Positions 2,943-23,003 of a DNA stretch of 64,000 bases are shown one piece after another. The translations under genes were made by a program, and so were the position numbers. The DNA comes from Sphingomonas sp. 67-36. GTDB lineage: Bacteria > Pseudomonadota > Alphaproteobacteria > Sphingomonadales > Sphingomonadaceae. The stretch is taken from NCBI GenBank assembly GCA_001897375.1, contig MKSU01000010.1, positions 1 to 64,000 on the forward strand, in the 5' to 3' direction. Under the pieces are notes generated by a model. The model ran no database searches and was not told the DNA's origin. It worked only from the letters and a program-made list of their open reading frames with translations. Every line of letters begins with the position of its first letter. The stretch's first letter is position 1.

Positions 2943-3184
2943 GGCCCGGTCGCCGTCGATGCCGATCCATTGGCCGGCGCGCTGAAAGCGGTTGTTCGTT
3001 CATGCGAATACTTGAGCCACAAGGGGCCGGCTCCGAACTGTCCGGTTTCAGGCGAAGCGGATGCCACCTCACCATGGGCAGATCCTCGGATACAAAATCT
3101 GTTTGATTCTGGGGGTAATGCGGGATCAAATTTGCAAACCCGTTGGCCTCTTGTTACGCATTACGAAACACTGTTGAGGAACCG

Positions 3185-3523
3185 GTGGAGATTTCGTTCG
3201 ATAATCCCGAAACCAGGGACCTGCTTTGCTGCCAGCAGAACATGGTCGCCAGGTTCGGAAATCAGCTGGCGAGATTGATCTGTTGCCGGCTCGCCGTGCT
3301 GCGGGCGGCGCCTTCGCTCGCCCACATTCCGGCCGCGCCCCCGATCAGTCTCGTCGTTTCCGCGAAGGACGGACTGTGCTCGGTCGCGCTCGGCCGCCTC
3401 GCGCGGCTCGATTTTCGGCCCTACGCCGCCAAGCGCGTGCTCGCCAAGAACCTGGCTGCAATTTCCGAAATCGAGATCGTCGGAGTCGGCCTTATCGCCG
3501 ATGCCAAGGGAAAGAAGTCATGA
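3185..3523 (+). CDS. higB: HigB/RelE-type toxin
   Basis: About 112 residues starting at GTG 3185 (VEISFDNPETRDL), chosen because GAGGA lies about five bases upstream. The sequence shows the RelE/HigB layout: an N-terminal beta strand, a helical AxxFGxxLAxxI region, a proline-rich loop, and the closing strand pair LARLDFRPY ... EIEIVGVG. HigB proteins are ribosome-dependent mRNA endonucleases. The stop overlaps the ATG of the next gene (ATGA), the usual toxin-first order of hig loci. What is unusual is the partner, a large antitoxin fused to a metallopeptidase. The catalytic residues cannot be assigned with certainty by eye. Confidence 0.8.
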   Translation: MEISFDNPETRDLLCCQQNMVARFGNQLARLICCRLAVLRAAPSLAHIPAAPPISLVVSAKDGLCSVALGRLARLDFRPYAAKRVLAKNLAAISEIEIVGVGLIADAKGKKS

Positions 3524-4620
3524 CCAAGCAACCCCAGCGCTACGCCTACACCCCGGATTACGCCTGCCCACCAGGCGAACTGATCCAGGAATACCTCGAC
3601 AGCCTCGACATCTCGGCGCGCGAGCTTGCCCGTCGGTGCGGGCGGTCGGGCAAGCTGATGGCGGAGATCGCCTCGGGCCGTGCGCCGATCGAGCCGGCGA
3701 CCGCGCTTCAGCTCGAGCGGGTCCTCGGCGTTTCGGCGTCGATTTGGTCGGGGATGGAGGCCGCCTATCAGCTTCACCAGGCTAAGGAAGCCGAGAACAG
3801 GGAGCTCGAGGCCTGCTACAAATGGGCCAGTGACTTTCCATTGAAGGAACTGGCCGAGCGGGATCTCATCGATCGCAGCGGGACCAAGTCGGACCAGGTC
3901 CGTGAGATGCTGCGGTTCTTCGGGGTGGGTAACGTGAAGGCCTGCGACGAACGGGTGCTCGAGTTGCTCGACGGCGACTATCGCACATCGGATACCTTCA
4001 AGAACGACGAGCTGTCGCTCGCAACCTGGTTGCAGATCGGTGAACGCCGCGCCGCCGGGATTGAGACGAAGGCCTACTCCAGGGACGCCTTCATCAAGGC
4101 ACTCACCGCCATTCGCGAACTAACGCTAATCCCGATCGACAAGGCCCTACCGGAGCTCGCCGAGCAGTGCGCCGAAGCCGGGGTAGCGTTCATTCTCGAA
4201 AAGCCGCTCAACAAGGTCAGGGCAAGCGGAGTCGCGCGCTGGCTCTCGCCTCGCAAGGCGCTGATCCAGCAAAGCCTGCGGCACAAGTCCGATGACCATT
4301 TCTGGTTCACGTTCTTCCATGAGTGCGCCCACATCCTGCTGCACAGCCGGCGCGAAACGTTCATCGACATGACGAAGGGACCGGGCAGCGGGAAACCGGT
4401 ACAGGAAGCCGAGGCCAATGCTTGGGCCGCCGACTTCCTAGTTCCCGCCCCGGCGCTCAAGAAATTCGTCAGGTCGTTTTCCAAGACGCCCGAGGAGGTG
4501 CAGTACTTCGCGGCGGCGCATCGGGTTGCGCCAGGCATCGTGGTAGGACAGCTCCAGCACGCTCACGTCTTGGGCTATAACGAACTTAACCACCTGAAAA
4601 TCCGGTACGAATGGGTCTGA
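3520..4620 (+). CDS. higA: HigA-type XRE regulator fused to ImmA/IrrE metallopeptidase
   Basis: 366 residues. Residues about 15-85 form a HigA-type XRE helix-turn-helix (ELARRCGRSGKLMAEIASG, then ALQLERVLGV). Residues about 200-310 form an ImmA/IrrE zinc peptidase domain, with the metal motif HECAH at residues 267-271 and a downstream acidic segment EAEANAWAADFLVP. Proteins of this fused type act as antitoxin and transcriptional repressor; the peptidase part may cleave a regulator, as ImmA does with ImmR. The start ATG overlaps the toxin stop, so the two are translationally coupled. The pair lies 140 bases upstream of the ubiquitin-like conjugation operon on the same strand, which raises the possibility that it controls or guards that operon; this is inference. 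Confidence 0.88.
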   Translation: MTKQPQRYAYTPDYACPPGELIQEYLDSLDISARELARRCGRSGKLMAEIASGRAPIEPATALQLERVLGVSASIWSGMEAAYQLHQAKEAENRELEACYKWASDFPLKELAERDLIDRSGTKSDQVREMLRFFGVGNVKACDERVLELLDGDYRTSDTFKNDELSLATWLQIGERRAAGIETKAYSRDAFIKALTAIRELTLIPIDKALPELAEQCAEAGVAFILEKPLNKVRASGVARWLSPRKALIQQSLRHKSDDHFWFTFFHECAHILLHSRRETFIDMTKGPGSGKPVQEAEANAWAADFLVPAPALKKFVRSFSKTPEEVQYFAAAHRVAPGIVVGQLQHAHVLGYNELNHLKIRYEWV

Positions 4621-4690
4621 TTCCGATTATGCAACGTGATACGTGACAGCTAATTAAAAAAAAATGCAGCGTAAGAGGTAACACTTTTTG

Positions 4691-4720
4691 TTGACGGCGG
4701 CGAAGGGCCTGCCGTATTCA
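4691..4720 (+). promoter_or_regulatory. Putative sigma70-type promoter of the Ubl operon
   Basis: TTGACG (4691-4696) and TATTCA (4715-4720) are separated by 18 bases and lie 40 bases before the ATG of the Ubl gene. An A-rich tract stands just upstream (4655-4665). This is a plausible -35/-10 pair seen by eye only. Confidence 0.4.
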
Positions 4721-4759
4721 CCGTGCATGGCGATTCCCGCCAGGCACGGAGCCAGAATC

Positions 4760-5074
4760 ATGACTGCACCCAATCCCGCGAAAGGCTCTCCCGACGACAA
4801 GACGATCGGGGTGACCGCCACCTATCTGCCAGCGCGCCAGCCCGCGCAGCTCACCTTCCCCGAGACCGCCGGTGTCGGCGCGGTCAAGACGGGCATCATG
4901 GAGAAGTTCGGGGTCGCCGAAGGGCCCACCCCGGATGGCCAGGGCCAGATCGTCTTCCAGCTGTTCGACAAGGACGAGCAGCTCACCGACATGAGCCGGA
5001 CGATCGGCGACGTCGCGGCGCCCGCGCGCCACGTCAAGCTGAACCTGGTCAAGCAGATCGTCCAGGGAAGCTGA
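4760..5074 (+). CDS. Ubiquitin-like modifier protein of a bacterial conjugation operon (BilA-like)
   Basis: 104 residues. It is followed at once by genes for an E2-like, a JAB protease and an E1-like protein, which is what identifies it. The sequence fits a single beta-grasp fold: strand VTATYLPARQPAQLTF, a helix AVKTGIMEKFGV, then QIVFQLFDKDEQLTD and a final strand HVKLNLVKQIV. In eukaryotic ubiquitin the C-terminus is a di-glycine; here it ends in QGS, so only one glycine stands near the end. Proteins like this are conjugated to target proteins via E1 and E2. Known Bil modifiers usually have two beta-grasp domains, so this one is short. The start at 4760 was chosen over an upstream frame extension because GGAG lies about nine bases before it. 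Confidence 0.75.
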   Translation: MTAPNPAKGSPDDKTIGVTATYLPARQPAQLTFPETAGVGAVKTGIMEKFGVAEGPTPDGQGQIVFQLFDKDEQLTDMSRTIGDVAAPARHVKLNLVKQIVQGS

Positions 5075-5077
5075 CCC

Positions 5078-5515
5078 GTGAGCTCGCTCGACGAGTTGCT
5101 GTTCGACAAGGATCTCGCGGAGGTCTGGCAGGATGCCGAAGCCCACCGCTGGACCCTCGAGCGAGCGGACACCCTGGCGGTCGACGTAACCATCTCGCCG
5201 CAGCGCGCTCCGAACGAGCTCTACCTGGCGCGGCTCCGCTGGACCGAATATCCGGGGCGGTTGCCCGCCTCGGTGGTGTTCCTGCATCCCGAGACGCGGG
5301 CAGCCGGTGCCAAGTCCTCATGGCCGACGATCGCCGGCGTCCGCCCGCCGAATGACATCTGCGCCTGCTGGACCGCCGAGGGCTATATCGCGCACCAGGA
5401 GTGGCTGGGCGACTCGAACATGACCTGGGACACCGGCGACAATGCGCTGCTCACCCAACTGCGCTTCCTCCAGCACCAGATGGACTTCACCTACGAAGGA
5501 CGCACCAATGACTGA
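5078..5515 (+). CDS. Prokaryotic E2-like ubiquitin-conjugating protein (BilB-like)
   Basis: 145 residues from GTG 5078, three bases after the Ubl stop and preceded by GGGAAG. The fold order fits E2 proteins: an N-terminal helix, beta strands (LAVDVTIS, ELYLARLRW, ASVVFLHP), then the PPNDICACWTAEG segment. Cys95 or Cys97 of that segment is the candidate thioester cysteine, in the place of the usual HPN...C segment. A C-terminal helix LLTQLRFLQHQ follows. In homologous operons the E2 accepts the Ubl from the E1 and passes it to the target. The gene overlaps the JAB gene by eight bases. Pairwise similarity to eukaryotic E2s would be very low; the call rests on fold pattern and neighbours. Confidence 0.75.
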   Translation: MSSLDELLFDKDLAEVWQDAEAHRWTLERADTLAVDVTISPQRAPNELYLARLRWTEYPGRLPASVVFLHPETRAAGAKSSWPTIAGVRPPNDICACWTAEGYIAHQEWLGDSNMTWDTGDNALLTQLRFLQHQMDFTYEGRTND

Positions 5516-6041
5516 CTTCTTCGAAATGCCCGAGCGCTGGGTGCTGCCCGACTTCATCTGGAAGCAATCGCTCGAAGACATGGCGCTTGACGGCGCGAAG
5601 GGCTGCGAGGGCGTCGCTCTATGGCTCGGCCGGCACCACGAGGGCGCCGCCGTCATCAGCGCCTGCGTGCTGCTGCGCGGACCCGGTGTGGTCAAGCGCC
5701 CCAACCATCTTTCGATCAGCGCAGGCCTGATGAACCAGGTGACGATGGCTGCCCTCGAACTCGACCTGATCCTGATCGGGCAGGTGCATTCGCACAGTCC
5801 GCTCGCCTCGACTGATCTCAGCTATCCCGACCGCTACCTCGGCATTACCGAGCGCGGGTACCTGTCGCTCGTCGCCCCCGACTTCGCGCAGAACCCCGCG
5901 ACGCGTCTCGCGCACTGCGGGGTGCATGTCCACGAGGGTGCAGCGGGGTGGCGCCGCATGGCCGCCGCGGAAATCTCCAGCCGCTTCGAACTGCCCGACC
6001 TTACGCCCCACGCTCCGCTGGTGATCGGAGGACCGGCATGA
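5508..6041 (+). CDS. JAB/MPN-domain metalloprotease (DUB-like, BilD-like)
   Basis: 177 residues. The JAMM zinc centre is visible as a glutamate in CEGVALWLG (Glu34) and the His-x-His pair of GQVHSHSPL (His94, His96), followed by STDLSYPD with Asp103 or Asp108 as third ligand. The spacing after HSH differs a little from the classic HxHx7SxxD, so the exact ligand is uncertain. JAB proteins of such operons remove or process the ubiquitin-like modifier. The start ATG lies inside the end of the E2 gene and the stop overlaps the E1 start (ATGA), so the four genes form one tightly coupled operon. Confidence 0.82.
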   Translation: MTDFFEMPERWVLPDFIWKQSLEDMALDGAKGCEGVALWLGRHHEGAAVISACVLLRGPGVVKRPNHLSISAGLMNQVTMAALELDLILIGQVHSHSPLASTDLSYPDRYLGITERGYLSLVAPDFAQNPATRLAHCGVHVHEGAAGWRRMAAAEISSRFELPDLTPHAPLVIGGPA

Positions 6042-7519
6042 GCGCGGATCTGCATCGCAGCCGTACCGCGGCCACCGTCGCCGCGCTGGCGTCCGGGAAC
6101 GAACATCGCTTTACCAGCAAACGCGTGCTGCTCACCGGCGACCGTGATGCTCTGCTCACCGCCAACGGTGCGGACATGGCGCGGGCCGCACTGCAGCTGC
6201 TTATGCGGATTAGTGACAACGTCGACGTGGCGCTGCCGCTGCTGAGCGGATCGCTGGGCACCGATCTTGCCCGCGATGGCGAGAGATTCGCATGGGACCG
6301 CGCGCCGCAGTTCGTGGCTTGCGACGGTGACTGGAGCGGCTACGATGCGATCCTCTCGATCGGTTCAAGTGTCCGTGCCGACCTGCCCTGGACCGCGATG
6401 ACCGCGAACGGCTGGATCGCGAGCGTGACTTCGGGCGCCCGCGGCATCGCTGCCGACTGCAGCCGGCCCAATCCGATCACCGCGCTGGCGGCGGCGAGTC
6501 TCGGGGTCTGCGAGGTATTCAAGCGGCTCATCGAGCTGCGGCCCGAACTCGGGGAACTGCTCGACGGGTCTGTGCTGAGCCTGTGGGATCATACGCTGGG
6601 CGGCTCGGAAGGTCCCGACATCCCGGCGAAGCTCGAAGCTGACCTGATGGTCAACGGGGCCGGGGCGATCGGCAGCGCCATCGCGCACCTGCTCGCCCGG
6701 CTACCGCGCGTGGGCGAACTCACCGTGGTGGACAAGCAGGACTACGGTCCGGAGAACTGGGGCACCTGCCTCGATCTCGAGCGCAGCCAGGTCGGCCAGC
6801 CTAAGGCGGAGATCGTGGCGCACCGGTTGCAACCGGGCGGTTCGGTTCGCGGTCTTAACACGACGATCAAGGCAGCCACCAAAGACCATTTTGGCGCAGT
6901 GACCCGCTGGCCCGAGATCGTTCTCAACGGCCTCGACGGCATCGACGCGCGCCATGACGCGCAGGAGATCTGGCCCGACCTGGTTATTGACGGCGCGCTC
7001 GATGCCGACCTCCAGGTCCGGGTCAGCGCGCACGAATGGGCCTCGGATCGGGCTTGCTTGCGATGTCTCTACCAGCATCCTCCGGGTGAACTGGCAGTGG
7101 TCAAACAGATGCGGGATACCGGCCTGTCCTGGGCGAGCTTGCAAAACCAAGACCGGCCCTTGACCGAACAGGACGTCGCCGCGGCCGACCCGGCGCGGCA
7201 GGCCGGCTTGCGCTCGCGGCTCGGCAGGACGGTCTGCTCGATCGTGACCGAGGACGGGGCGCGGGCAATGTCGCGCTCGCAGTTGGACGAAGGCTTCTCA
7301 CCCTCGGTGCCATTCGCGGCCTGCTTCAGCGCGTGCCTCGTCGTTACCGAGCTGGTGCGCTACTTGATTACCGGCGAAGTCGGGGTGCGCCCGCTCTGGC
7401 AGGTGAGCATGCTGATCGGACCCGATACCGCGCAGATGCTTCCCGACAAGCGCCATGCCGACTGCAGGTGTCGGCATCGCGAACTGATCGATAAAGTCCG
7501 CGCCAGCTGCATTGGTTGA
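6038..7519 (+). CDS. ThiF/E1-like ubiquitin-activating enzyme (BilC-like)
   Basis: 493 residues. The N-terminal 200 residues resemble an inactive or accessory domain. Residues about 200-330 form the ThiF/E1 adenylation domain: nucleotide motif NGAGAIGSA (207-214), the acidic strand end VVDKQDYGPEN, Lys256, and the NGLDGIDAR segment. Cys340-x2-Cys343 and a C-terminal CRCRH probably bind zinc; Cys in RTVCSIVTEDG is one candidate for the thioester cysteine. E1 enzymes adenylate the modifier's C-terminus with ATP and form a thioester. The gene closes the Ubl-E2-JAB-E1 operon. No cGAS/CD-NTase or UvrD neighbour exists, which separates it from CBASS. Confidence 0.85.
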   Translation: MSADLHRSRTAATVAALASGNEHRFTSKRVLLTGDRDALLTANGADMARAALQLLMRISDNVDVALPLLSGSLGTDLARDGERFAWDRAPQFVACDGDWSGYDAILSIGSSVRADLPWTAMTANGWIASVTSGARGIAADCSRPNPITALAAASLGVCEVFKRLIELRPELGELLDGSVLSLWDHTLGGSEGPDIPAKLEADLMVNGAGAIGSAIAHLLARLPRVGELTVVDKQDYGPENWGTCLDLERSQVGQPKAEIVAHRLQPGGSVRGLNTTIKAATKDHFGAVTRWPEIVLNGLDGIDARHDAQEIWPDLVIDGALDADLQVRVSAHEWASDRACLRCLYQHPPGELAVVKQMRDTGLSWASLQNQDRPLTEQDVAAADPARQAGLRSRLGRTVCSIVTEDGARAMSRSQLDEGFSPSVPFAACFSACLVVTELVRYLITGEVGVRPLWQVSMLIGPDTAQMLPDKRHADCRCRHRELIDKVRASCIG

Positions 7520-8013
7520 ATCCTAAATCTGCAGGGTTGATGCGCAGGTGATCGTCGAGTGGACAGGCCTGTCCGACATCGCTGCCTTTTCGCGCAGGCC
7601 AATTCAATGTCTGCCTTTGGGAAATTGGCGAGCGAGCTCGAACGATTGAGCTGGGGCGCGTTGCTGCCGTTATCGTCGATCGGCGGCATGGTCTCTTTAC
7701 CCCAGCTTCATTCTCATGAACGGACTATCAGGACCATCCGACAGCCCGGACCTGGAGAAAGGCCTAAGGCGGATCCACGAATGGCCGGTGTCGGCGTATC
7801 CGGACGCTCCCAGTTGCCGCCCCGACCGACAGGAATGTCCCAAATTCTGCTCGTTTCACCTTTGAAAACCCCGAGCGGTATGCGGAGACCCGCCTGTTTG
7901 CGGCCGCAACGTATTCCCAGCATCGAACCGGACGGGCGTTGAAGCGCAGCAGTCCTTGTTTTCGGTCAGCCGGCGCAAATCAGGTGATGATCGGTGGGTA
8001 CGGTCGGCTCCTT
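7520..8013. other. Intergenic gap between the E1 gene and the kinase gene
   Basis: About 490 bases without a convincing gene. Short reading frames occur but none has a ribosome site or a protein-like composition. The mixed, non-periodic sequence could be the decayed remains of a mobile element or an intergenic dispersed repeat; I can see no inverted repeats or transposase fragments that would settle this. Confidence 0.4.
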
Positions 8014-10752
8014 TCAACCGCCGCTCATCGGCGCAACGGAACCCTGATGCAACGCCTGCCTAAGCATCAGGTATTTCCGACGCTGGAACGCATCGGCTTG
8101 CGGTGAGCTATACGCAATGGTGGCAGCATCCAGCTTGGTGGTGGCCTCCGCGCGGCGGCCGGCGTGGAGCGCGATCTCGGCTTGCGCGAGATCGACGTTC
8201 GCGCCCCAGTTCCTGTCGCCGGACAGGTCGGCGACCGCCTTGCGATTCACCCCGACGAGAAGCGGCGCGGCTTCCGTATCCTTGCCCGCCTCGATCAGGC
8301 ATTGCGCCAGCGCGGTCGCGACGCCTTGCGTCAGCGCCGCATCGTCGCCGAATGCATCGCGCGACGCGAGCCATGCGCGCCGCGCGTCGGCGATGCCGTG
8401 CACGGTGTCGGGGATGCGGCATTCGCTGGTCGCGAGGTCGGAGAGCGCGGCGATCGTGCGGAACGCGCCCATCCCCTGCTGCGCCAGCGCGATCGCATAG
8501 AGCTTCCGCCCGTCCGCCACGGAATCGCGGTAGTCGCCCATCCCGCCATAGGCCTCCAGCCGCGCGGCGAGCGTCTGCTGGGCGAGCCGGTGACGCGGGC
8601 CGAGTTGCCGCTCGATCAGCGGCAGCACCGCCGACAATTCCGCCACCGCTTCGGGAAAGCGCCGCTGAAACAGATAGGCTTGCCCGAGGTTCATCCGCAG
8701 CAGCAGCACATCGGGATTAGTAGGCCCGAGGAGGGCGGTCTGCGCCGCGAGCAAGGGCTTGATGAGCGACTCCCCGCGCGCGCCGTCGCCCGAGCGGATA
8801 TAGGAGAAGGCGAGGCGCTGGCGGAAATCGTTGCGCGTCCGCTCATCGAACCGATCGGGCAGGGTGTCGGCGAGCCGCGTGGCGAGCGCGAAACGGTCGC
8901 GCGCCACCTTCATGTCCCCGCCCGCCAGCTCCACCATCCCCTCGGCAGTGGCGAGCCATATGCGGATTTCGGGGTCGGCCGCATCGGCATCGCCCAGCCG
9001 CTTGCGCTCCGCCGCGATCAGCGCGCGGGCGTGCTCGACCGATCCCTGCTCGTAAGACAGCGCCTCCATGAAGGCGTGCTGGAGCCGCGAGACGACCGCG
9101 GGCTTGCTATCGCCAAGATGCGCGCGGGCGAAGGCGTCGTCGGCCTTGCCATAAGCGACGCGCGCCGCCTTCCAGTCCGATTGCTGGGCATAGACCCGCG
9201 CCAGCGTGTGATAGAGCTGGCCCGCGATCCGTGGCGCGTTGGCGAAGCGGCGGTCGATTTCCGGCTCGGCGCGATGAGTGGCGTCGATCAGCGTCTCGCG
9301 CGCATCGCCGCTGCGCGCGGGGTCGCCGCGCCCGAGCAGATCGTCGGCGAGGAAGCCGTTGATCGCCTGCGTGATCGCGGTCTGCCGCTGCGCCTCGTCG
9401 CGCTGGCGCGCCGCCTGCCATGCCGCTGCCGAGGCCGCCACCGCGCCGAGCGAGAGCGCGAGGCCCGCGCCGATCACCCACGGCCGCCGCATCCGCGCGC
9501 GTTCCGCCTCGTGCCTCGCCCGTTCGGTCGCGCGCGCTTCCTCCGCCGCGCGGCGGGCCGCCTCGCGCCGTTGTTCCAGCGTGGCGAGATGCCCGGCGAG
9601 CGCGTCGGCCGAGCCGAAACGGTCGCCGGGATCGAGCGCGCAGGCACGGGCGATATCGGCGCGGAGCAAGGGATCGTCGACCAGCGCATCCCAACCCGGC
9701 GCGAGCGGCCGGTGGAGATCGCCGACGACCAGATGGAACAGCAGCAATCCGAGCGCATAGATGTCCGAGGCGACCGAGGGCGTGCCCTCGCCGATCAGCT
9801 CGGGCGCGCGATAGAGCGGCGTGCCGGTGGGGGAGGGGCCATCCGGCTCGGCGGTTTCCGTCAGCGCGAGGTCGGGCGCGCGCGGAAGATCGAGCAGGGC
9901 GCTACTGCCGAAATCGATCAGCCTGAGGCGTGGAGGCCCGCTCGCCGCGTCGGTCACCAGCAGGTTGGCGGGTTTCAGGTCGAGGTGCAGCACGCCCACC
10001 GCATGCGCCGCCGCCACCGCGCGCGCGGTCTGCCCGACCAGCGCGATCCGCCCCGCGCGATCGAGCGCGGCGCCATGCCGCACGAACCATTGGCCGAGAT
10101 CGATCCCGGCATCGGGAAAGGCGAGCCACGCCGGCACGCGATCGAACGCCTGCGCGACCGGCAGGACGAAACGGCTCGCGGCGTCCGCGGTGCCGGCGAG
10201 GACGCGCCCGACGCGCGCCTCGCGCTTCAACTGGCGCAGCCGGCCCGGCGTCTCGGCGAACTTGAACACGCGCGCCACGCCCGTATCCGATCGCGCGAGC
10301 CAAACGTTGTCCGCCTCGCCGCGTGCCAGCAAGTTCTTCAGCCGCCAGCCCGGCGCGCCCGGCACCTCGTCGCCCGCGATCAGCCCGATCAGCGGCCGGT
10401 CGCCTAGCTCGGTGCAGCGTATCTCGCAGCCGGCGGCGATCCGGTAGCCGAGACGCGGCACCGTCTCGACGATGGATGCATCGTCGCCCAGCGCGCGGCG
10501 CAGCTTCGCGATGGCGGTCGGCAGCGACGAGGCGACGACCGTCACGCCCGGCCACACCAGATCGAGCAATTCCTCCTTGGTGACGACCTCGCCGTTGCGG
10601 TGGAGCAGCGCGAGCAGCAGCTCCATCGGCTTCTGCTCGATCTCCACGCCCCGACCGCCGACCCGAAGCCGCCAGCTCGACTCATCCAGCTCGACCGATC
10701 CGATCGCCCAGACCAGCCTCGCCCGGCGCGAATTACTCGATTTCAATGACAT
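8014..10752 (-). CDS. Winged-helix / Ser-Thr kinase / TPR multidomain receptor-like protein
   Basis: 912 residues. Residues about 12-105 are an OmpR/CadC-type winged helix (RNGEVVTKEELLDLVWPG ... RLGYRI). Residues about 130-395 are a protein kinase domain: Lys in ARVFKFAE, catalytic loop HLDLKPANLL, DFG, and YRAPE. One membrane segment stands near residues 424-445 (GAGLALSLGAVAASAAAW). The remaining 450 residues are TPR-like helical repeats (for example LYHTLARVYAQQSDWKAARVAYG). The HRD motif is replaced by HLD, still compatible with activity. A single protein could thus bind DNA, phosphorylate and sense a partner in the periplasm through the TPRs. It is divergent from a cold-shock-domain membrane protein 106 bases away. 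Function is unknown; the domain order is visible directly. Confidence 0.88.
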   Translation of the reverse strand: MSLKSSNSRRARLVWAIGSVELDESSWRLRVGGRGVEIEQKPMELLLALLHRNGEVVTKEELLDLVWPGVTVVASSLPTAIAKLRRALGDDASIVETVPRLGYRIAAGCEIRCTELGDRPLIGLIAGDEVPGAPGWRLKNLLARGEADNVWLARSDTGVARVFKFAETPGRLRQLKREARVGRVLAGTADAASRFVLPVAQAFDRVPAWLAFPDAGIDLGQWFVRHGAALDRAGRIALVGQTARAVAAAHAVGVLHLDLKPANLLVTDAASGPPRLRLIDFGSSALLDLPRAPDLALTETAEPDGPSPTGTPLYRAPELIGEGTPSVASDIYALGLLLFHLVVGDLHRPLAPGWDALVDDPLLRADIARACALDPGDRFGSADALAGHLATLEQRREAARRAAEEARATERARHEAERARMRRPWVIGAGLALSLGAVAASAAAWQAARQRDEAQRQTAITQAINGFLADDLLGRGDPARSGDARETLIDATHRAEPEIDRRFANAPRIAGQLYHTLARVYAQQSDWKAARVAYGKADDAFARAHLGDSKPAVVSRLQHAFMEALSYEQGSVEHARALIAAERKRLGDADAADPEIRIWLATAEGMVELAGGDMKVARDRFALATRLADTLPDRFDERTRNDFRQRLAFSYIRSGDGARGESLIKPLLAAQTALLGPTNPDVLLLRMNLGQAYLFQRRFPEAVAELSAVLPLIERQLGPRHRLAQQTLAARLEAYGGMGDYRDSVADGRKLYAIALAQQGMGAFRTIAALSDLATSECRIPDTVHGIADARRAWLASRDAFGDDAALTQGVATALAQCLIEAGKDTEAAPLLVGVNRKAVADLSGDRNWGANVDLAQAEIALHAGRRAEATTKLDAATIAYSSPQADAFQRRKYLMLRQALHQGSVAPMSGG

Positions 10753-13380: not shown

Positions 13381-15669
13381 TTATTCTTCGGACGCGAGCA
13401 GAGGCGAAAAAAGGTTGCGCAGATCTTCATCAGTGAACCAATCGATCTCGATGGTGCTGTCGCCGCGTACCGACAGCGCGTCTTCCCCGGGCGTTTCCGC
13501 ACGCAGGCGGTCAGCGCGGCTGGATATGGCGTCCTTGGCCCGGGCTATTTCGGCACGTGTCGCGCCAACAGCGGGGCCAAGCTCATCGACCAGCTTCGTA
13601 TAGTCGTCGAGTGTGGATTCGGAATCCACGTGTTCGAGATTGTTGGGAAGCTCGGCTATCACGCGGTGTGCCGCGGAATCGACACTCCAGCCGATACGCT
13701 GCGCCAAATGCCCTTTGCGTGGAAGCACTGCATTGCGGATGCGGCGGACATCATCGAGATCGAGATCAAAATTCAAGATCTGAATCAGGCGATCCTCCAG
13801 TGCTTCAACCAAGGCAGTGGTCCTTTCGCGCTCGGCCTTAGGGGCGCCGCGCAAGCTGGCGATCAGCCGCGGCATTAAACGGCCATCGGCCCAGGAACTG
13901 AACCAGATGTCCCTGCTGGATGCCACGACCAGTGCCGCATCTAGGAATTCTTGGCGTTTGCTGGTCTTCCACCATCCCCGCAAAAGCTCGATCTGACCCG
14001 AATGGGACATGCCTATCCATCGCCGCCGGTTGGGTTCGCCCCGGATCGGCTTCCAGGGTTCCTCATTTACCGCGTTAGCCGCGAGGGGGATAAAGGAGAT
14101 TAGGAAAGCCGCTTTGTCCTCGCGGCTCACCTCCGGTACCTTCTTGAAATGATCGTAGAGCGCCCGCGCGGCGCGGAGCGTCGCCATTCCCTCGGCCATG
14201 GCGCGTAGCAGCGCACTGTCGGTCAGATATTGCGCAAGATAGTCGCGAACCGACGGATTGATCAGGGATACGTGACCATTCGAGATCGTGACGAAGCTAC
14301 CCTCAAGCGTTCGCACGCTCTCTTCAAAATCTTTGGGCCCCGATGACAGCGAGAAGCGGCGGCATAGCGCCTGGTGCAACGGGTTGTAGACCTCCTCGAG
14401 ATCTTCGATCTCGACGCCGTGCTCAGCGCTGACGTACATCGCGAACAGCAAATGCCGGCAGCGGCTGGGGATATGCGTGCGGAACGCCTTGTCCCAAACG
14501 CTCAACGGATCGTCGAGCGCGGCGATAAACACGTCAGGATAGTCGGCCGGCGCGATTTCCTCGACGCGGTCCGCATTGGTCAGGGTCTGGACGATGCGCG
14601 GATTATAATGGTCGTGATCGACGATCTTCTTGATCGCGTTCTGCTCGATCAGCGCCTGAATATGGGCTTCCGGGACGCCGGCGACGATCAAGTGATTATA
14701 CAATATGCGTGCCCGGATGCGCCGGGTGTAGATGCCGACATCCAGCACGTAGCTGGCGACGTCGAGGGCCCGGGTCGACAGGGCTTCCGACTGAAGCCGC
14801 GCCTCCTCGTAGATATAGGCACGCGTGGTCAGGATGAACCGCGCGTTGGACGTGCGGCGAACGCGGCCGATAAACCGGGCGAGATCGGAATCTTGGTTCG
14901 AAAGGGCGCGGGCATCGAGCGCGATCCGGCCTAGGAAATCGTCGAAGAAGAAGATTTGCCGCTTGGTATCGTCGATGTGGGCGAATGCATCGTCCAGGCT
15001 GCGGATCGCGACCAGTTCCCAATCCTCCGCAAGATAGGCATAGCTCAGCATCTCGGCGAGCGTGGTCTTGCCGACACCGGGCGGGCCGGACACGATCAGG
15101 ACGTGGATCGACTCAAGGATGTCGCGCCCGGCCTTAAAGCTGGGATTCTCGGCATAGACGCTCAGCTTGGCCTTGATGTCATCGCACGTCAGCGTCGTGA
15201 AATTATGCGTCGCGGCATGGAGCACGCGCTCCAGCACCCCGGCGCCCGAAAGCCAGAGTTTGACATGGCTTTTCTGGACATCGGGGTATTTTCGCAGCAG
15301 CCCATTGATGTCGTCGTTGCCAAAGATATCGCACGTGCCCTCGAGGCTAAGTCCAATGATCGTCGCCAGCCGGTCTTTGTTCGGCGGCGTCAGCGGCCGC
15401 GATGTCGTCAGCAGATACCGGTTCGGCGTCAACGCATCGATCGATGCCCGTTCCTTCTGCATCGTGCGCGCCAGCGCATTGAAATCCGAAAGCCGGTAAT
15501 GTTTAGCCTGCAAGATCGTCATGTCGCCCGCCGCGGCATGCCGCCCATCGACACCGCCATCGCGCCCGGGGCCAAACGCTTCAAAGCGGACGCCAAGTTC
15601 GCGGCCGAGCAGGTCGCGGGACAGGTCCTCGAAATCGGCAGGAGAGAGGGCGTCGAAACTGAACGTCAC
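13381..15669 (-). CDS. Mrr-type nuclease fused to nSTAND3-type NTPase (predicted defence protein)
   Basis: 762 residues. Residues about 10-120 are a Mrr-like restriction endonuclease domain with the PD-(D/E)xK signature: FEDLSRDLLG, GRDGGVDG, then LQAKHY. Residues about 185-330 form an nSTAND3-type NTPase: P-loop SGPPGVGKTT, Walker B FFFDDFLG, and sensor FILTTRAYIYEE. The C-terminal 430 residues are helical with a possible winged-helix and target-binding part. STAND NTPases of this kind (for example the Avs group) sense phage proteins and then activate a nuclease. This one is shorter than typical Avs proteins. It stands near an OLD nuclease and a toxin-antitoxin pair. The defence role is an inference from domains and location. 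Confidence 0.83.
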   Translation of the reverse strand: MTFSFDALSPADFEDLSRDLLGRELGVRFEAFGPGRDGGVDGRHAAAGDMTILQAKHYRLSDFNALARTMQKERASIDALTPNRYLLTTSRPLTPPNKDRLATIIGLSLEGTCDIFGNDDINGLLRKYPDVQKSHVKLWLSGAGVLERVLHAATHNFTTLTCDDIKAKLSVYAENPSFKAGRDILESIHVLIVSGPPGVGKTTLAEMLSYAYLAEDWELVAIRSLDDAFAHIDDTKRQIFFFDDFLGRIALDARALSNQDSDLARFIGRVRRTSNARFILTTRAYIYEEARLQSEALSTRALDVASYVLDVGIYTRRIRARILYNHLIVAGVPEAHIQALIEQNAIKKIVDHDHYNPRIVQTLTNADRVEEIAPADYPDVFIAALDDPLSVWDKAFRTHIPSRCRHLLFAMYVSAEHGVEIEDLEEVYNPLHQALCRRFSLSSGPKDFEESVRTLEGSFVTISNGHVSLINPSVRDYLAQYLTDSALLRAMAEGMATLRAARALYDHFKKVPEVSREDKAAFLISFIPLAANAVNEEPWKPIRGEPNRRRWIGMSHSGQIELLRGWWKTSKRQEFLDAALVVASSRDIWFSSWADGRLMPRLIASLRGAPKAERERTTALVEALEDRLIQILNFDLDLDDVRRIRNAVLPRKGHLAQRIGWSVDSAAHRVIAELPNNLEHVDSESTLDDYTKLVDELGPAVGATRAEIARAKDAISSRADRLRAETPGEDALSVRGDSTIEIDWFTDEDLRNLFSPLLASEE

Positions 15670-16194: not shown

Positions 16195-18024
16195 TCAGGC
16201 AAGTGCGCTCATGCTTCGAAGCCATCCTTCGATCTCGCCCGCCGGATCGCGTGCACGAATTTGCGCTGCGGTCATGTGGCTGAAGGCCTTCGACAAATAT
16301 CCCTTCGCCTTGTCGGCTCCCATCCTTCCGTCGAAATTTCGCTTAGCCGAGAGCGCGATCGCGAAGGCTTCTGGCACGGAGGGCGCTCCATCGGCGGGGT
16401 GATCCACGCAGTCCACATCGATATCGAAGGCAGCCTTGATCGCGTCAGCGTGTAGATAGCACTCGATTTCATGTTTCTGGGTCTGGACTGCCCAGGACCC
16501 AAGGCCGTCGGTGCGCCCGTTCACCTCGGCGACCGATACCGCATATTTAGCCACGTCGGAGTCGTAGATGTGAGCCTCGGGTCGGTGCATGTTGCGCAAG
16601 TAGTTCTCGGTTACCCAGTGCTTGAGCGTCGACCCGCCCGCCGGAATGAAGGCGAAGCGCTCATCGGTCATCAGGTTCGGTATGGTGTCGTCTTCCGCGT
16701 GCAATGCGGCACTCAGGCACTTTAGGGCTGTCACGTCCGTCGGCCCCTCGACACAGATGAGGACGCGTACGCGACTGTCCGGGGTGAGGCCGAGAGCTTT
16801 CGCCACCGTGTCAAACACGTCGACCCCGGCCCGGACCGCAGGCGTCGCCGGCGGTCCTTCGCTGGAAACGAACCGGATGCTTTCTATAGGAAGGTCGGCC
16901 GCCAGCCCCGGGCTGTGAGTCGTGAGGATCACTTGGCAATGAGGCGTCGTCGCTATCTCCTTGAACGCGTCAATGAGGACCCGCTGGTTCGCTGGATGCT
17001 GCGACGTCTCGGGCTCTTCGATCGCATAGATCAGGTTTCGCTTTGCGGAACTTGACAGTTTGCGCTCCGCCTCTGCCTTGAAGAAGCTGACCAGGATGAG
17101 CCTCCGCACACCGCTGCCGCGCTTGTTCAAGGGAATGCGGTCATCTGTGTCCATGCCGAGCGAGAACAGGCCCATCCACTTGGACGCGGTGGGCGGGACA
17201 AACTTCGGCGAAAGCGAGTTCGCAAGCTTGGGATCGATGCTCTTAAGAGCCTCGTGCGTGAGCTTCGCGATCTCCTCCGTCTTCGCCTGTACCAGATTCT
17301 GAATGGACTCGATCGCCTCCTGAGCCTCGGAGATGGCCGCCGCGATAGCCCCTTTGAGCGGGTTCTGCACCTCGCCATCGGAATCGCGGCTCTGACGATC
17401 GCTCTGAAAGAGCGCAAACATCGGAAGATGTAGTTCCAGCTGATCCCAGATACGCTTGCTATCCTCCTTGGGCTTCGAAACCGGGATGCGCGCTTCCACC
17501 AAACCAAGTTCGGGGCAGGCTCCCCAGAGGGCCTGACGCATGCCCGGATTGCCCTTTAGCGCGACGTCTAGTGACTGCGCCCTCACAAGGGCCTGCAGCT
17601 CTTTTTCCTTCAGTTCAAGGAGGTTATCCAGCCCCGAAGCGCTCGGATGCCGGGCGAGTATAAATGTTTCGCATGTCGGCGTCTTCTTCGAGCAGTCGTA
17701 GACTCGCGCGATCTTCAGGGTGCCAGCGCCGGTCAGGAGGTATTCTTCGCGGAGCGTAGTCGGCGCCCCGGCGTCCAGTGTGATCTCCTCCGGAAGATCC
17801 GCAAATTCAGCAGTGATGCTGACGAGTGACGAACCGCTGAAGACGTTGGCGTCGGCCTGATCGATCTTCACGACATCGCCGTTGAAGAAGATTTCCAGCG
17901 CCTCCAGCAGGCAAGATTTACCGATGTCGTTCCGCCCGATGATTGTGGTCAGCTCCGAGAACTCGATAGTCGTCGCAGTCTGATAGGCTCGAAAATTTTC
18001 GAGTGTCAGCGAAACCAGCCTCAT
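16195..18024 (-). CDS. OLD-family ATPase/TOPRIM nuclease
   Basis: 609 residues with ATG at 18024, chosen because GAGGGGG lies about eight bases upstream and MRLVSLTLENFRAY is the normal OLD start; longer in-frame extensions look non-coding. Residues 30-37 are the ABC-type P-loop GRNDIGKS. Further on stand RGSGVRRL (signature) and YAIEEPETSQHP (Walker B). The C-terminal TOPRIM nuclease has VEGPTDVTAL and a following DSDVAK. Known members (OLD of phage P2, GajA of Gabija) restrict phages. No GajB/UvrD helicase gene is adjacent, so this is a stand-alone (class 1 like) protein. Its place between Mrr-nSTAND3 and ParDE fits a defence island. Confidence 0.87.
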   Translation of the reverse strand: MRLVSLTLENFRAYQTATTIEFSELTTIIGRNDIGKSCLLEALEIFFNGDVVKIDQADANVFSGSSLVSITAEFADLPEEITLDAGAPTTLREEYLLTGAGTLKIARVYDCSKKTPTCETFILARHPSASGLDNLLELKEKELQALVRAQSLDVALKGNPGMRQALWGACPELGLVEARIPVSKPKEDSKRIWDQLELHLPMFALFQSDRQSRDSDGEVQNPLKGAIAAAISEAQEAIESIQNLVQAKTEEIAKLTHEALKSIDPKLANSLSPKFVPPTASKWMGLFSLGMDTDDRIPLNKRGSGVRRLILVSFFKAEAERKLSSSAKRNLIYAIEEPETSQHPANQRVLIDAFKEIATTPHCQVILTTHSPGLAADLPIESIRFVSSEGPPATPAVRAGVDVFDTVAKALGLTPDSRVRVLICVEGPTDVTALKCLSAALHAEDDTIPNLMTDERFAFIPAGGSTLKHWVTENYLRNMHRPEAHIYDSDVAKYAVSVAEVNGRTDGLGSWAVQTQKHEIECYLHADAIKAAFDIDVDCVDHPADGAPSVPEAFAIALSAKRNFDGRMGADKAKGYLSKAFSHMTAAQIRARDPAGEIEGWLRSMSALA

Positions 18025-18546
18025 CGTGACATCCCCCTCTTTTTCGAAAATTGCCGCGCGTTTCATTCCATGGCAAGGGAATCTGAAACGGGGTTGAGAG
18101 CTGCGGCCCAGTCTCAAAAAGCTGCGGCGGATCAGATTAGGCGCGGCATGCGCGACAATCGGAACGTGCATCCAGCAGGTTGATTAGCCCGCCCCGCTCG
18201 ATCCGCACGGGCGTTGTCCGCTTTCCGAGGTGAGTGATCGAAAGCTGCTAGTCCGCACTCGGCCAGCCTTTCCGGTTCCCTGCCGCTGTTTGCTGTCTTT
18301 AAGAAAGTCCGGTGTTGGGCTGAAAGCCGCCCTTTCGACGCGGGCCCGGGATTGACGGCAATGTCCCAATCTCAGTCGTTCCGACCGCCGCTCGAACCCG
18401 GATTCACAAGCGGCAGGTTTCAGGATCGCGCCGAGTCAAGCTGAACAGCCGAGATAAGGGCGCGTTCCGGCCTGGCGTCTCTCATCCCAATGCAGTCATT
18501 CAGCGAAATCTCGATCAATCCCGATCCCGGCCTTTGGTTCGGTTGA
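18025..18546. other. Intergenic gap between OLD and ParE genes
   Basis: About 520 bases with no supported gene. Part of it (18240-18400) resembles the kind of dispersed intergenic repeat seen in other gaps of this window, but this is an impression only. It may hold the OLD gene promoter at its left end. Confidence 0.35.
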
Positions 18547-19647: not shown

Positions 19648-21066
19648 TCACGCCGCTTTTCGGAGCGTAGACCCTTCGGCTTCAGGTGCCTCGAACAAGC
19701 TCGCGATGACGGTACGCCGGGCCGTGCCAAGGCCTAGCCAGTTGTGCAGGATCCCGGGCTTGCTGGCCTCTTCGACGATAGTGCCGAACATCACGTTGGA
19801 GATTGCCTGCTGCTGTCCGCGCAGGAAATCCTCGACGATCTTTTCGCGCGTGATGTAGCCAGAATTCACACCCGCAATCGCGTGGTTCATCAGGAGCTTG
19901 GCGTCGATCTCCGAGATTCTTGCATGCGTCGCCAAGGTTCGGAACGTCTGGCGCAGGTCGTTGCCCCACTTCGAGAGATCTTCCCGATCCTCCTTCGTTT
20001 CAACCATGTGTCCTGCTTCGCTGTTGGCCGGAAACAGCCACGTGGCAGCCTGATCGGGATGGAGGAGGCGGCCGAACCGGATGGCGCGCAACAGACACAG
20101 GATCATCTGCCGGGAAAGGGGTATGTCGAATGCGCGGATCTCGCCGCCCTTGGGGGCGGCGATGTGGAGGACGCGGCGGCGCAGATCGAGATGCTTTAGC
20201 ATTGCGAGCTTCAGGGCCGTCGTCCGGCTGCCCGACAGCAACGTGAACAGGTGAAATTCACGGCGGATGGGGTTCTCCAGCTTTGCTGCTTCCTTGAACC
20301 AGCCTGGAAGGTCCTTCAGGCCCATCGCGGTGTTGCGGCGGTGCTCGGGGTTCCAATCGACAGCATCGACTGGATTTTCCGGCGGCAAGGCGCGTTTGTT
20401 TTTACGCCAGGCGTAATTGTAGATTGCGCGAAGAGTACGCATCGCTCCGTTCGCGCCATAGGGACCGGAAGACACGGTCAACGCGTCGTGTTTCGTCGCC
20501 ACGAGATCAGGGTTGTCGGCCAATTCGCTGAGAGGTTTATCAAGCCAATCGGTGAAAACGTGCAGCACGTCGTGCTCGTAGCCTTCGATGGTCTTGGGAG
20601 ACCGGTTCTTTCGGATCAGGTGCGAGATTTTGTAACGCAGCCACGCTTCGCGAAGCGTAATGCCCGCCGTGATCGGCTTCGCCTCAATGTCTTCTTCCGT
20701 GAAGTCAGTCTGAGCGGGGGGCGGGCTGGACTCGGGAGCGAGACCGAGCCTTTTGGCGGATACCGAACGCTTCCGCACCGCATCTGGTTTGGGATGTCGG
20801 CCCTTGCTGATCTCCGCCAGATATCCCTTTGCGATCGCACGGGCAGCGGCAGTGGTCATCTCCGTGGCGTCTCCGACCGATACCTTGATCGTGGTAGCCT
20901 TCCTGTCGATGCGAAGATCGCCCTGGACCATGTAACGACGGGTGCGGGCGCCGACGAGAACATAGAAGCCCTTCAGCTTTTCGTCTTTGACAAGATATTG
21001 CCCCTTGAAGGCCGGGGGGAGGGCTTTCACTGCTGCCTCGCTGAGGACCATCCGAGTGACTGTCAT
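19648..21066 (-). CDS. Tyrosine recombinase/phage-type integrase (DUF4102-containing)
   Basis: 472 residues. The N-terminus (MVLSEAAVKALPP, KGFYVLVGA, KATTIKVSVGDA) matches the DUF4102 arm-binding domain of P4-type integrases. A core-binding SAM-like helix bundle follows (TLREAWLRY, SPKTIEGYEHDV). The catalytic part has Arg in LLSGSRTTAL, the DLRQTFRT box and Tyr in GVNSGYI. P4-type integrases usually insert elements at tRNA 3' ends, and a tRNA-Arg 3' fragment lies 190 bases upstream of this gene. This strongly suggests that the gene drives the island to its left. Confidence 0.9.
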   Translation of the reverse strand: MTVTRMVLSEAAVKALPPAFKGQYLVKDEKLKGFYVLVGARTRRYMVQGDLRIDRKATTIKVSVGDATEMTTAAARAIAKGYLAEISKGRHPKPDAVRKRSVSAKRLGLAPESSPPPAQTDFTEEDIEAKPITAGITLREAWLRYKISHLIRKNRSPKTIEGYEHDVLHVFTDWLDKPLSELADNPDLVATKHDALTVSSGPYGANGAMRTLRAIYNYAWRKNKRALPPENPVDAVDWNPEHRRNTAMGLKDLPGWFKEAAKLENPIRREFHLFTLLSGSRTTALKLAMLKHLDLRRRVLHIAAPKGGEIRAFDIPLSRQMILCLLRAIRFGRLLHPDQAATWLFPANSEAGHMVETKEDREDLSKWGNDLRQTFRTLATHARISEIDAKLLMNHAIAGVNSGYITREKIVEDFLRGQQQAISNVMFGTIVEEASKPGILHNWLGLGTARRTVIASLFEAPEAEGSTLRKAA

Positions 21067-21252: not shown

Positions 21253-21299
21253 AACTACGAATCTGAGGGTCGGACGTTCGAATCGTTCCGGGCGCGCCA
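21253..21299 (+). other. tRNA-Arg(ACG) 3' fragment, putative attachment site
   Basis: The stretch begins with ACTACGAATCTGAGGGTCGG (anticodon loop CTACGAA and variable loop), continues with a T arm containing GTTCGAATC, and ends with the acceptor GGGCGCGCCA. The 5' half of a tRNA is missing: the sequence upstream is A/T-rich and unrelated. This is what remains at the distal end of an element that integrated into a tRNA-Arg gene. The same bases encode the last residues of the serine recombinase on the other strand. Confidence 0.75.
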
Positions 21300-23003
21300 T
21301 TTCGGTTCAAAGCTGCGAACGCCTAGAACCGCCGCCTCTACGCCAGAGGCGGCGGTTAGCGTTCGTAGCAGTTCGCTCCGCAGGCCACGGATACGCACTT
21401 CGGTCTTGCTGATGACCTCGACCCGTTGGGCGACGGCACGGATATGGTCGCGGGCGAATGTTCCATCATCATTGCGTAGCTTCTTTTTCGCCGTCACGGC
21501 GAACGTGCGCAGGCTCTCGGCGGTGATCTCGGGGCCGATCTTCTCGATATGCGAGACAGCGCGATCGGCATCTCCACGCGCTTGATCCCGCACCGCCTGC
21601 AACTCGGCAATCCGATCCTTGAGTGACGGGTCGCTCATATCGACCACACCGTTCTCAATCGCTTCATAGAGCCGCTTGAGTTTCGCCTCGGCCTCGGTCG
21701 CCCGTCGCTCCAGATCGGCCACATGAAGCCGACGCTGATCAACCCATTCGTCCCGTCGCTCGATGAGCTGATCCATAAGCAACGTGAGTCGCTTCGGATC
21801 GAGCAGGCGTGATTCGAGATGGTCGATCACGGCGTCGTTCAGCCGGTCCATCGGGACGGTGATGCCAGGGCAGCCCTTCACACCTTGCCGAGCCTTAGTC
21901 GAACAGGTGTAATAGCGATGCTCGCGCCCGACGCTGCTGGTGCCGGTGCGGAGCGTCATTGCGCCGCCGCAGCAAGCGCAGAAGCAGATGCCGGTGAGGA
22001 GGGTCGGGCCGCCGACCGCCATCGGTGCCATCATTTTTGGGCTGCGCGCCGTGAGCGACCGCTGCACCGCCCGGAACTCGGCTTCGGTGACGATCGGCGG
22101 CACTTCCATGATAGCATGTTCGCTCTTGGGCTTCGACGCCTTGGTGCGATAATCCCGATAGTTGAACTTGTGTTGGCCGATATAGGTGGTGCGGGTCAGC
22201 ACGAGGTGCACCGCCCCAAGGCCCCAACGCCCGCCATCGCGTGTGCGGATATTGTTTTCATTGAGCCAGGACACGATAGCTTTCAGGCCCATCGGGCCGC
22301 TATTCTCGACACCGTTCAGCGCCATGCGGTACATCATTCGCACCGTCTCGGCCTGGATCGGGTCGATCTCCAGCTTCTTCTTCACTTTTGCACCGCGCTG
22401 CCCGGCGACAACAATGCGATAGCCGATCGGCGGGCGCGCGCCGTTCCAGAAGCCCTGCCGCGCATTCTCCTTCATCGAACGGAGCGTATGCTTGCCGTTC
22501 TCCTTCGACTGATATTCGTCGAACAGCGTCATGATCTTACGCATCATCACGCTCATCGTATCGTCCCCGATGTCCTGCGTGATCGAGACCAACTTCACCC
22601 CGTTCTTTGCCAGCTTGCGCAGGTAGAACTCGAACTGGAATTGGTCGCGGAAGAAGCGAGAGAAGCTATGGACTACAATGACATTGAAGGTTGGCGGCTT
22701 CTCCATTGCCGCGTCGATCATCGCCTGGAACGAAGGCCGACGATCATCGGTGGCAGAGTTGCCCGGTTCGACGAACTCGGTTGCAACCTCCCACCCGCGT
22801 GACAGACAATAGCCTTCGATCTGGCGGCGCTGGTCAGGAATCGAAAGGTCGCTTTGGGCCTGCCGATTGGTCGATACGCGCAGGTAAAGGGCTGCGCGGG
22901 TCGGCTCCGCAACCAGCCTATGCGGCCCACGGCATGGCGCTCGGGATGGGTTCGCAGTCTGCTCATGACCTCGTCCCGATGTGACCTGGTCTGATTGCGC
23001 CAA
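21255..23003 (-). CDS. Large serine recombinase
   Basis: 582 residues if started at TTG 23003. Residues about 35-180 form the resolvase catalytic domain (RAALYLRVSTNRQ with the active Ser, VVHSFSRFFRD). A recombinase domain follows (GARPPIGYRI), then a zinc-ribbon (ICFCACCGG ... YYTCSTKARQGVKGCPG) and a coiled-coil C-terminal part. Such proteins integrate phages or ICEs. The start is problematic: before RAALYLRV no ATG or GTG lies in frame, since the upstream DNA is the out-of-frame 5' end of another gene. The 3' end (ARNDSNVRPSDS) is translated from the tRNA-Arg fragment. Both ends hence look like recombination joints; expression is uncertain. Confidence 0.85.
   Translation of the reverse strand: MAQSDQVTSGRGHEQTANPSRAPCRGPHRLVAEPTRAALYLRVSTNRQAQSDLSIPDQRRQIEGYCLSRGWEVATEFVEPGNSATDDRRPSFQAMIDAAMEKPPTFNVIVVHSFSRFFRDQFQFEFYLRKLAKNGVKLVSITQDIGDDTMSVMMRKIMTLFDEYQSKENGKHTLRSMKENARQGFWNGARPPIGYRIVVAGQRGAKVKKKLEIDPIQAETVRMMYRMALNGVENSGPMGLKAIVSWLNENNIRTRDGGRWGLGAVHLVLTRTTYIGQHKFNYRDYRTKASKPKSEHAIMEVPPIVTEAEFRAVQRSLTARSPKMMAPMAVGGPTLLTGICFCACCGGAMTLRTGTSSVGREHRYYTCSTKARQGVKGCPGITVPMDRLNDAVIDHLESRLLDPKRLTLLMDQLIERRDEWVDQRRLHVADLERRATEAEAKLKRLYEAIENGVVDMSDPSLKDRIAELQAVRDQARGDADRAVSHIEKIGPEITAESLRTFAVTAKKKLRNDDGTFARDHIRAVAQRVEVISKTEVRIRGLRSELLRTLTAASGVEAAVLGVRSFEPKWRARNDSNVRPSDS
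22907..22966 (-). pseudogene. 5' remnant of a VIT/CCC1-family transporter gene
   Basis: In a frame different from the recombinase, ATG 22966 begins MSRLRTHPERHAVGRIGWLR. This is the characteristic start of VIT1/CCC1-type iron/manganese transporters, in which the next residues would be AAVLGANDGIV. At 22907 the match stops and recombinase sequence begins. The remainder of the transporter is absent from the window. It marks an insertion or deletion joint. Confidence 0.6.

Follow-up and report, generated by a model that had tools for sequence, protein, structure and literature searches.

Does a cluster of four short genes in a Sphingomonas genome encode a eukaryote-like protein-conjugation system, and, if so, does it represent a new kind of system or a known one? 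This study was concerned with an operon at positions 4760-7519 of contig MKSU01000010.1 of Sphingomonas sp. 67-36, of which positions 1 to 64,000 were analyzed (this whole stretch of 64,000 nucleotides is called the window). The operon encodes a ubiquitin-like protein (Ubl), an E2-like enzyme, a JAB protease and an E1-like enzyme, and these parts correspond to BilA, BilB, BilC and BilD, which are the Ubl, E2, deubiquitinase and E1 of Bil operons (PMC11354881). The window operon is very probably a Bil-type protein-conjugation operon whose mechanism, as inferred, acts against phage. It is considered a real and divergent Bil operon, probably intact, that belongs to an outlying branch of the known anti-phage type. 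Its genes are as follows.

4760-5074, forward strand: Ubl gene, BilA-like, 104 residues, one beta-grasp domain
5078-5515, forward strand: E2 gene, BilB-like, 145 residues, GTG start
5508-6041, forward strand: JAB gene, BilC-like JAMM deubiquitinase, 177 residues
6038-7519, forward strand: E1 gene, BilD-like, 493 residues

The four proteins have recognizable folds or homology and keep their active-site residues, and their genes are coupled, with a spacing of +3, -8 and -4 nt from Ubl to E2, JAB and E1. The set is not a chance arrangement, since nine further loci share the gene order and similar protein sizes. Of the four proteins, the Pfam scan matched the E1 alone, and the 2023 PADLOC models recognized just the JAB and E1, with weaker E1-E2 matches. 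Neither the Ubl nor the E2 gave anything significant in Pfam, NCBIfam or PADLOC. The initial annotation, made from the sequence alone, had proposed a conjugation operon related to Bil, and this was borne out by profile matches to BilB, BilC and BilD and, for the Ubl, by structure.

The window E1 is composed of an N-terminal half, which aligns with the N-terminal half of BilD, and a C-terminal ThiF half. Pfam identified ThiF (1.4e-13) and PADLOC identified BilD (2.9e-23, residues 105-321), while the E1 profile of the window family matched BilD 8tyz_A at 3.4e-38 over profile positions 23-502 of 505. This near-full-length alignment covers both the inactive and the active adenylation halves. The ThiF residues are GAGAIG at 207-212, Asp232, Lys256 and Asp300, and the pairs Cys340/343 and Cys476/478 are likely to form a zinc site. 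The loop glycines, Asp232, Lys256, Asp300, Cys340/343, Cys400 and Cys476 are kept in all ten aligned E1 rows; the ThiF active residues, whose loss the initial annotation had named as a refutation, are retained relative to homologues. Cys400 aligns about 10 residues ahead of Cys417, the loaded cysteine of BilD (PMC11354881), and because of this offset it is put forward only as the probable candidate for the catalytic cysteine.

The JAMM residues of the window JAB are Glu34, HSH at 94-96, Ser105 and Asp108, and the motif is kept in all ten loci. PADLOC identified this protein as BilC (6.3e-11), and the family profile matched BilC 8tyx_B in the PDB at 1.8e-26. The sole PDB match of the family E2 profile was BilB 8tyz_C (2.1e-6). 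The AlphaFold2 model of the E2 had a mean predicted local distance difference test score (pLDDT) of 92.1 and a predicted template modeling score (pTM) of 0.87, and its top Foldseek match was 8tz0_C, a chain of a bacterial E1-E2-Ubl complex. The E2 active site reads C95-x5-E101-x4-H106-x-E-W. The signature C-x5-E-x4-H-x-E-W was found in nine of the ten loci, which include all nine of the E1 clade described below, and is absent from the Thaumarchaeota locus (L074; loci carry the prefix L). The UBC fold and the Cys followed by His are present in the window E2; this E2 departs from the full CEHH spacing of BilB, as do those of the tandem-BilA loci, which are Bil loci with two beta-grasp domains in BilA. 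CEHH spacing and a two-domain BilA were both rejected as defining features of Bil, because established or PADLOC-recognized Bil loci lack them too.

A separate observation concerns the E2s of the tandem-BilA E1 clade, three of seven of which (L060, L061 and L062) have Trp or Ile at the catalytic Cys. The substituted motifs are VYRPWDR and LYHPIDR, as opposed to LYLPCDR in the other four, and these Cys-less E2s are possibly inactive.

The window Ubl was identified by structure. The family Ubl profile found nothing of note among PDB sequences (best 0.29); the AlphaFold2 model (mean pLDDT 81.3, pTM 0.65) has the elements b-b-a-b-a-b, and its top Foldseek match was 8tyx_A, a chain of a bacterial Ubl-deubiquitinase complex. 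With Bil chains ranked first for both models, the beta-grasp Ubl and UBC-fold E2 that had been proposed were supported. The Ubl ends in ...LVKQIVQGS, in which Gly103 is likely the conjugated residue and Ser104 a one-residue tail. A glycine lies inside the last five residues in 10/10 loci: it is the last residue in six, is followed by one residue in two (Ser in the window, Gln in L068), by two in L035 and by four in L074. Trimming of the short window tail by the JAB is plausible, since a Gly with a short tail is seen here and BilC trims BilA likewise (PMC11354881).

Relatives were sought with the E1. The search of plasmids gave six records, the best of which is on a Deinococcus aetherius plasmid that carries the same four genes (104, 145, 179 and 505 residues), with identities to the window of about 40-41% for the E1, 44% for the JAB, 43% for the E2 and 31% for the Ubl. 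A scan of genome contigs, queried with the E1 alignment of the window, Deinococcus and Janibacter, yielded 409 candidate stretches and at least seven confirmed loci (L068-L074), a lower bound as two peptide patterns were used. The order Ubl-E2-JAB-E1 was found in all ten loci (the window, L033, L035 and L068-L074). The other nine are in Deinococcus and Janibacter plasmids, in a Terriglobia and a Geobacteraceae genome, in Curvibacter, Ramlibacter, Streptomyces and an unclassified proteobacterium, and in a more distant Thaumarchaeota genome. In a tree of 31 E1s the window and eight others form a clade that spans five phyla (support 96/94), apart from the tandem-BilA E1s (7 rows, 100/100), the type of the NGR234 operon, a haloarchaeal group, two further groups and the ThiF outgroup; the tree joins long branches and has no determined root, and three of the four ThiF outgroups tried entered it. 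The 8-row profiles include L074, which lies outside the 9-row E1 clade.

Searches of the class and of relatives gave no further match. At 1e-25 the E1 profile found only the window genome itself among 385 genomes of the class (0/384 others), and at 1e-8 the JAB profile found none in 60 relatives, 36 of which are of the same genus. Because of this patchy distribution, the operon was probably acquired. With the 8tyz_A stretch as query, a BLAST-type search of the 385 genomes gave no match at 1e-20, and the E1 brought up no relative in two scans of viral contigs.

The initial annotation also suggested a distinct subtype on the grounds of the gene order, the single beta-grasp domain and the C-terminal ending of the Ubl. 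These three features were rejected as marks of a new subtype because all are present in known Bil loci. First, the order Ubl-E2-JAB-E1 is that of Bil, and both the NGR234 operon and six tandem-BilA loci (L056-L059, L061 and L062) have it. Secondly, a single Ubl domain is normal in NGR234-type Bil, since the Ubls in the solved Bil complexes are chains of 82-83 residues, aligned at entry numbers 16-97, and the NGR234 operon, the E1 of which shares 96% identity with the crystallized BilD stretch, starts with a gene for a 98-residue Ubl. Third, a single Gly, in some cases followed by a short tail, is a common ending of Bil Ubls: two-domain BilAs have a single C-terminal Gly in four of six loci (L057, L058, L059 and L062), and Gly plus six or four residues in L056 and L061. 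The subtype claim holds only as a sequence clade, and the E1 clade of nine with its E2 signature supports a subfamily of Bil, as judged from sequence, and not a new kind of system.

The mechanism is worded here by analogy with characterized Bil, from which we infer catalysis, conjugation and anti-phage action. The JAMM protease would remove Ser104 from the Ubl and expose Gly103, which the E1 would adenylate before the Ubl is loaded onto a cysteine of the E1, probably Cys400. From there the Ubl would move to Cys95 of the E2 and on to amino groups of target proteins, and the JAMM protease would also take it off again. Bil acts on phage assembly. In the window system the targets would most likely be phage structural proteins, with poorly assembled virions as the outcome.

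How the operon might be controlled depends on the sequence just upstream, where two features were found.

3517-4620, forward strand: fusion of an XRE helix-turn-helix (HTH) and an ImmA/IrrE (M78) metallopeptidase with an intact HEXXH, 139 bp before the Ubl gene
4721-4749, no strand: 12-bp dyad with a 5-nt spacer, ending 10 nt before the Ubl start

DNA damage may induce the operon through the HTH-ImmA protein, though support for this in the window is weak. CapP, a peptidase activated by single-stranded DNA, cleaves the repressor CapH (PMC13373217, PMC10904395), and capP is among the PADLOC matches of the window protein (9.4e-10). ImmA/IrrE peptidase genes occur upstream of the operon, at a distance of up to about 1.5 kb, in 8/16 loci examined and in six of the nine of the window clade (the window, L033, L068, L069, L071 and L073, not L035, L070 or L072), as counted with an M78 profile whose seeds included most of the genes that it went on to detect, though not that of L033. 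In L068, another gene separates the ImmA gene, a strong capP match (1.4e-58), from the operon. However, in the window a single protein carries both HTH and peptidase and is most like HigA/PD-Lambda-2 antitoxins (TIGR02607 at 4.9e-15 and PD-Lambda-2_B at 1.5e-31, with Pfam M78 at 1.5e-9), so that a role in a separate toxin-antitoxin module and a regulatory role are equally likely. The chances are even that 3517-4620 is the antitoxin of a HigBA/PD-Lambda-2-like module in the same island, which would be compatible with a Bil operon next to it. A small open reading frame (ORF) at 3143-3523 overlaps the start of the gene; we take it to resemble HigB, and Pfam and PADLOC found nothing significant for it. 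The partners of such ImmA genes also vary, for example a PIN-like protein in L069 (by eye) and a HipA kinase in L033. Against a separate module, the ImmA gene recurs just upstream of the operon across phyla, whereas the whole 4.0-Mb window genome has five M78 genes, and the dyad lies just upstream of the Ubl gene. Such a dyad occurred in 2/300 dinucleotide shuffles of 4621-4759 by a criterion chosen after the dyad was seen, and it is a candidate operator or translation-control hairpin. A sigma-70-type promoter scan of 3000-8100 found none, Rfam at the gathering score had no match in the window or in L069-L072, and ARAGORN found no tRNA in the window.

A different dyad, CGGCCGA...TCGGCCG (imperfect in L070), is shared by four loci of the clade about 130-175 bp upstream of the Ubl gene.

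L069, 6488-6519: shared dyad
L070, 6496-6521: shared dyad
L071, 6493-6518: shared dyad
L072, 4385-4412: shared dyad

It directly follows a very short ORF with a Shine-Dalgarno-like sequence, and more conserved blocks lie downstream. Elsewhere in these four genomes it has one copy, with one mismatch, in that of L071; at three mismatches a reversed-pattern control gave equally many matches. It is a candidate operator or leader RNA; pairing as RNA was rejected, as the arms had no clean covariation by eye.

The operon is followed by several other features.

8014-10752, strand opposite to the operon: winged-helix, protein kinase and TPR fusion, just downstream
13381-15669: nSTAND3 ATPase with an Mrr-type nuclease domain, PADLOC candidate PDC-S73 (2.6e-136)
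16195-18171: AAA_15/AriA-like ATPase
19648-21066: protein with an integrase Arm DNA-binding domain
21255-23003: serine recombinase

The last four, defense-type genes and recombinases, are within 16 kb of the operon, and the setting looks like a mobile defense island. This bears on another explanation, in which the same biochemistry serves stress- or damage-induced conjugation to host proteins, as considered for Bub. The ImmA-type peptidase genes upstream of most clade operons, with their one strong capP match, agree with it, and Bub provides a precedent, in that 219/544 Bub operons are associated with CapW or with CapH and CapP and protection against phage by Bub had not been demonstrated, according to PMC13373217. 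However, the defense-type neighbors argue against a host-protein role, and the family E1 profile matches Bil far better than Bub (3.4e-38 for BilD versus only 0.0055 for BubCD), so that this purpose is unlikely. Sulfur-carrier (ThiS/MoaD-like) metabolism in place of protein conjugation is highly improbable: the E1 carries a ThiF domain and its top NCBIfam matches include ThiF and MoeB, but the operon has a UBC-fold E2 with its Cys kept, nearly the whole E1 can be aligned with BilD, and the scanned neighbors include no sulfur-metabolism gene.

Other modules were seen in the same genomes. A second Ubl-JAB-E1-like module occurs in the window genome (G000:C21, L064:2646-5166, and L063:2479-4968). 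This module has a 260-residue Ubl ending in RGG, a JAB match at C21:11470-11880 and an E1-like protein whose glycine loop is unusual; inspection by eye showed no E2, and the module adjoins a helicase-like protein with an ImmA domain. In L056-L059 a UvrD/Rep-like helicase gene adjoins the tandem-BilA operons (by eye). At L072:1554-2939, upstream of the Bil-type operon on the same contig, is a fused JAB-ThiF gene of another Ubl-type system (Pfam ThiF 2.3e-36; Prok-JAB 9.3e-4, below cut-off). In the window, the 2468-residue ORF at 48028-55434 has a start that by eye resembles that of a secreted or surface protein.

The operon is of interest for several reasons. First, it represents a Bil branch, present in at least five bacterial phyla, the window copy of which Pfam detects only through the E1 and 2023 PADLOC only through the JAB and E1. 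Secondly, its compact proteins (104, 145, 177 and 493 residues) make a convenient minimal system. Third, the recurrent ImmA-type neighbor suggests damage-responsive control of Bil, which is directly testable.

Among known systems, Type II CBASS (cyclic-oligonucleotide-based anti-phage signaling system; Cap2/Cap3) shares the E1, E2 and JAB parts, but Cap2 is an E2-E1 fusion and a CD-NTase (cGAS/DncV-like nucleotidyltransferase) is present, whereas the window E1 and E2 are separate and the operon has no CD-NTase. The annotated absence of a nearby CD-NTase was confirmed, as the single SMODS match in the window genome at E 0.001 lies on another contig and was below cut-off. Ubl, JAB and E1 domains also occur in Bub (e.g. 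Citrobacter BubCD) and in the polyUbl operons of type 6e (Iyer 2006, PMC1779556), but there the JAB is fused to the E1, whereas the window genes are separate. Type 6d operons, as described in the same paper, are more like the window in having separate Ubl, JAB, E1 and E2 genes and an E2 with no classical His that keeps one His after the Cys. They differ by an extra alpha-helical protein and a JAB with an additional N-terminal domain (PMC1779556); the window operon has no fifth coupled gene and no N-terminal JAB extension of this kind.

The two Bil branches compared are closest. The NGR234-type Bil of rhizobial plasmids (8tyx, 8tyz and 8tz0) shares with the window the gene order, the one-domain Ubl and an E1 of about 500 residues, and its E1, E2 and JAB are related to those of the window by profile. 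It differs in the E2 motif (C-x5-E-Y-H-x4-H versus C-x5-E-G-x3-H-x-E-W in the window), in a long E2 insert ahead of the Cys, in an E1 Cys about 10 residues apart, in a separate E1 clade and in a Ubl whose profile has no match to that of the window. The tandem-BilA type, recognized by the PADLOC BilA and BilD models (L056-L062), shares the gene order and E2 and E1 profile matches, and the window Ubl is like the C-terminal domain of tandem BilA, with the ...VQG ending common to L057. It differs in its two beta-grasp domains (the window does not match the two-domain BilA model of PADLOC), in an E2 site of C-D-R-x4-G-H in 4/7 and in an E1 on a long separate branch (100/100).

In profile-profile comparisons, the window-family E1 reached 99.5% against the tandem type and 99.9% against the NGR234 type, and the E2 94% and 96%, respectively. 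The window-family Ubl reached 96% against residues 78-158 of tandem BilA, its C-terminal domain; against the NGR234-type Ubl it had no match (0.9%), and three negative controls gave 0.1-0.2%. Compared directly, the NGR234 and tandem types gave 96% for the E1, 9% for the Ubl and 8% for the E2, and the low values involving NGR234-type profiles, which comprise two sequences each, are weak evidence. By these profiles the window clade is a link between the two branches: its Ubl corresponds to the C-terminal half of tandem BilA, and its E1 and E2 have matches in the NGR234 type as well, although the Ubls and E2s of the two types barely match each other directly. The fuller reading, a separate cross-phylum Bil subfamily with its own E2 site that links both branches and is induced by DNA damage through the HTH-ImmA peptidase, is offered tentatively as a possibility, and a clade that links Bil branches would aid in asking how bacterial E1-E2-Ubl cascades diversified.

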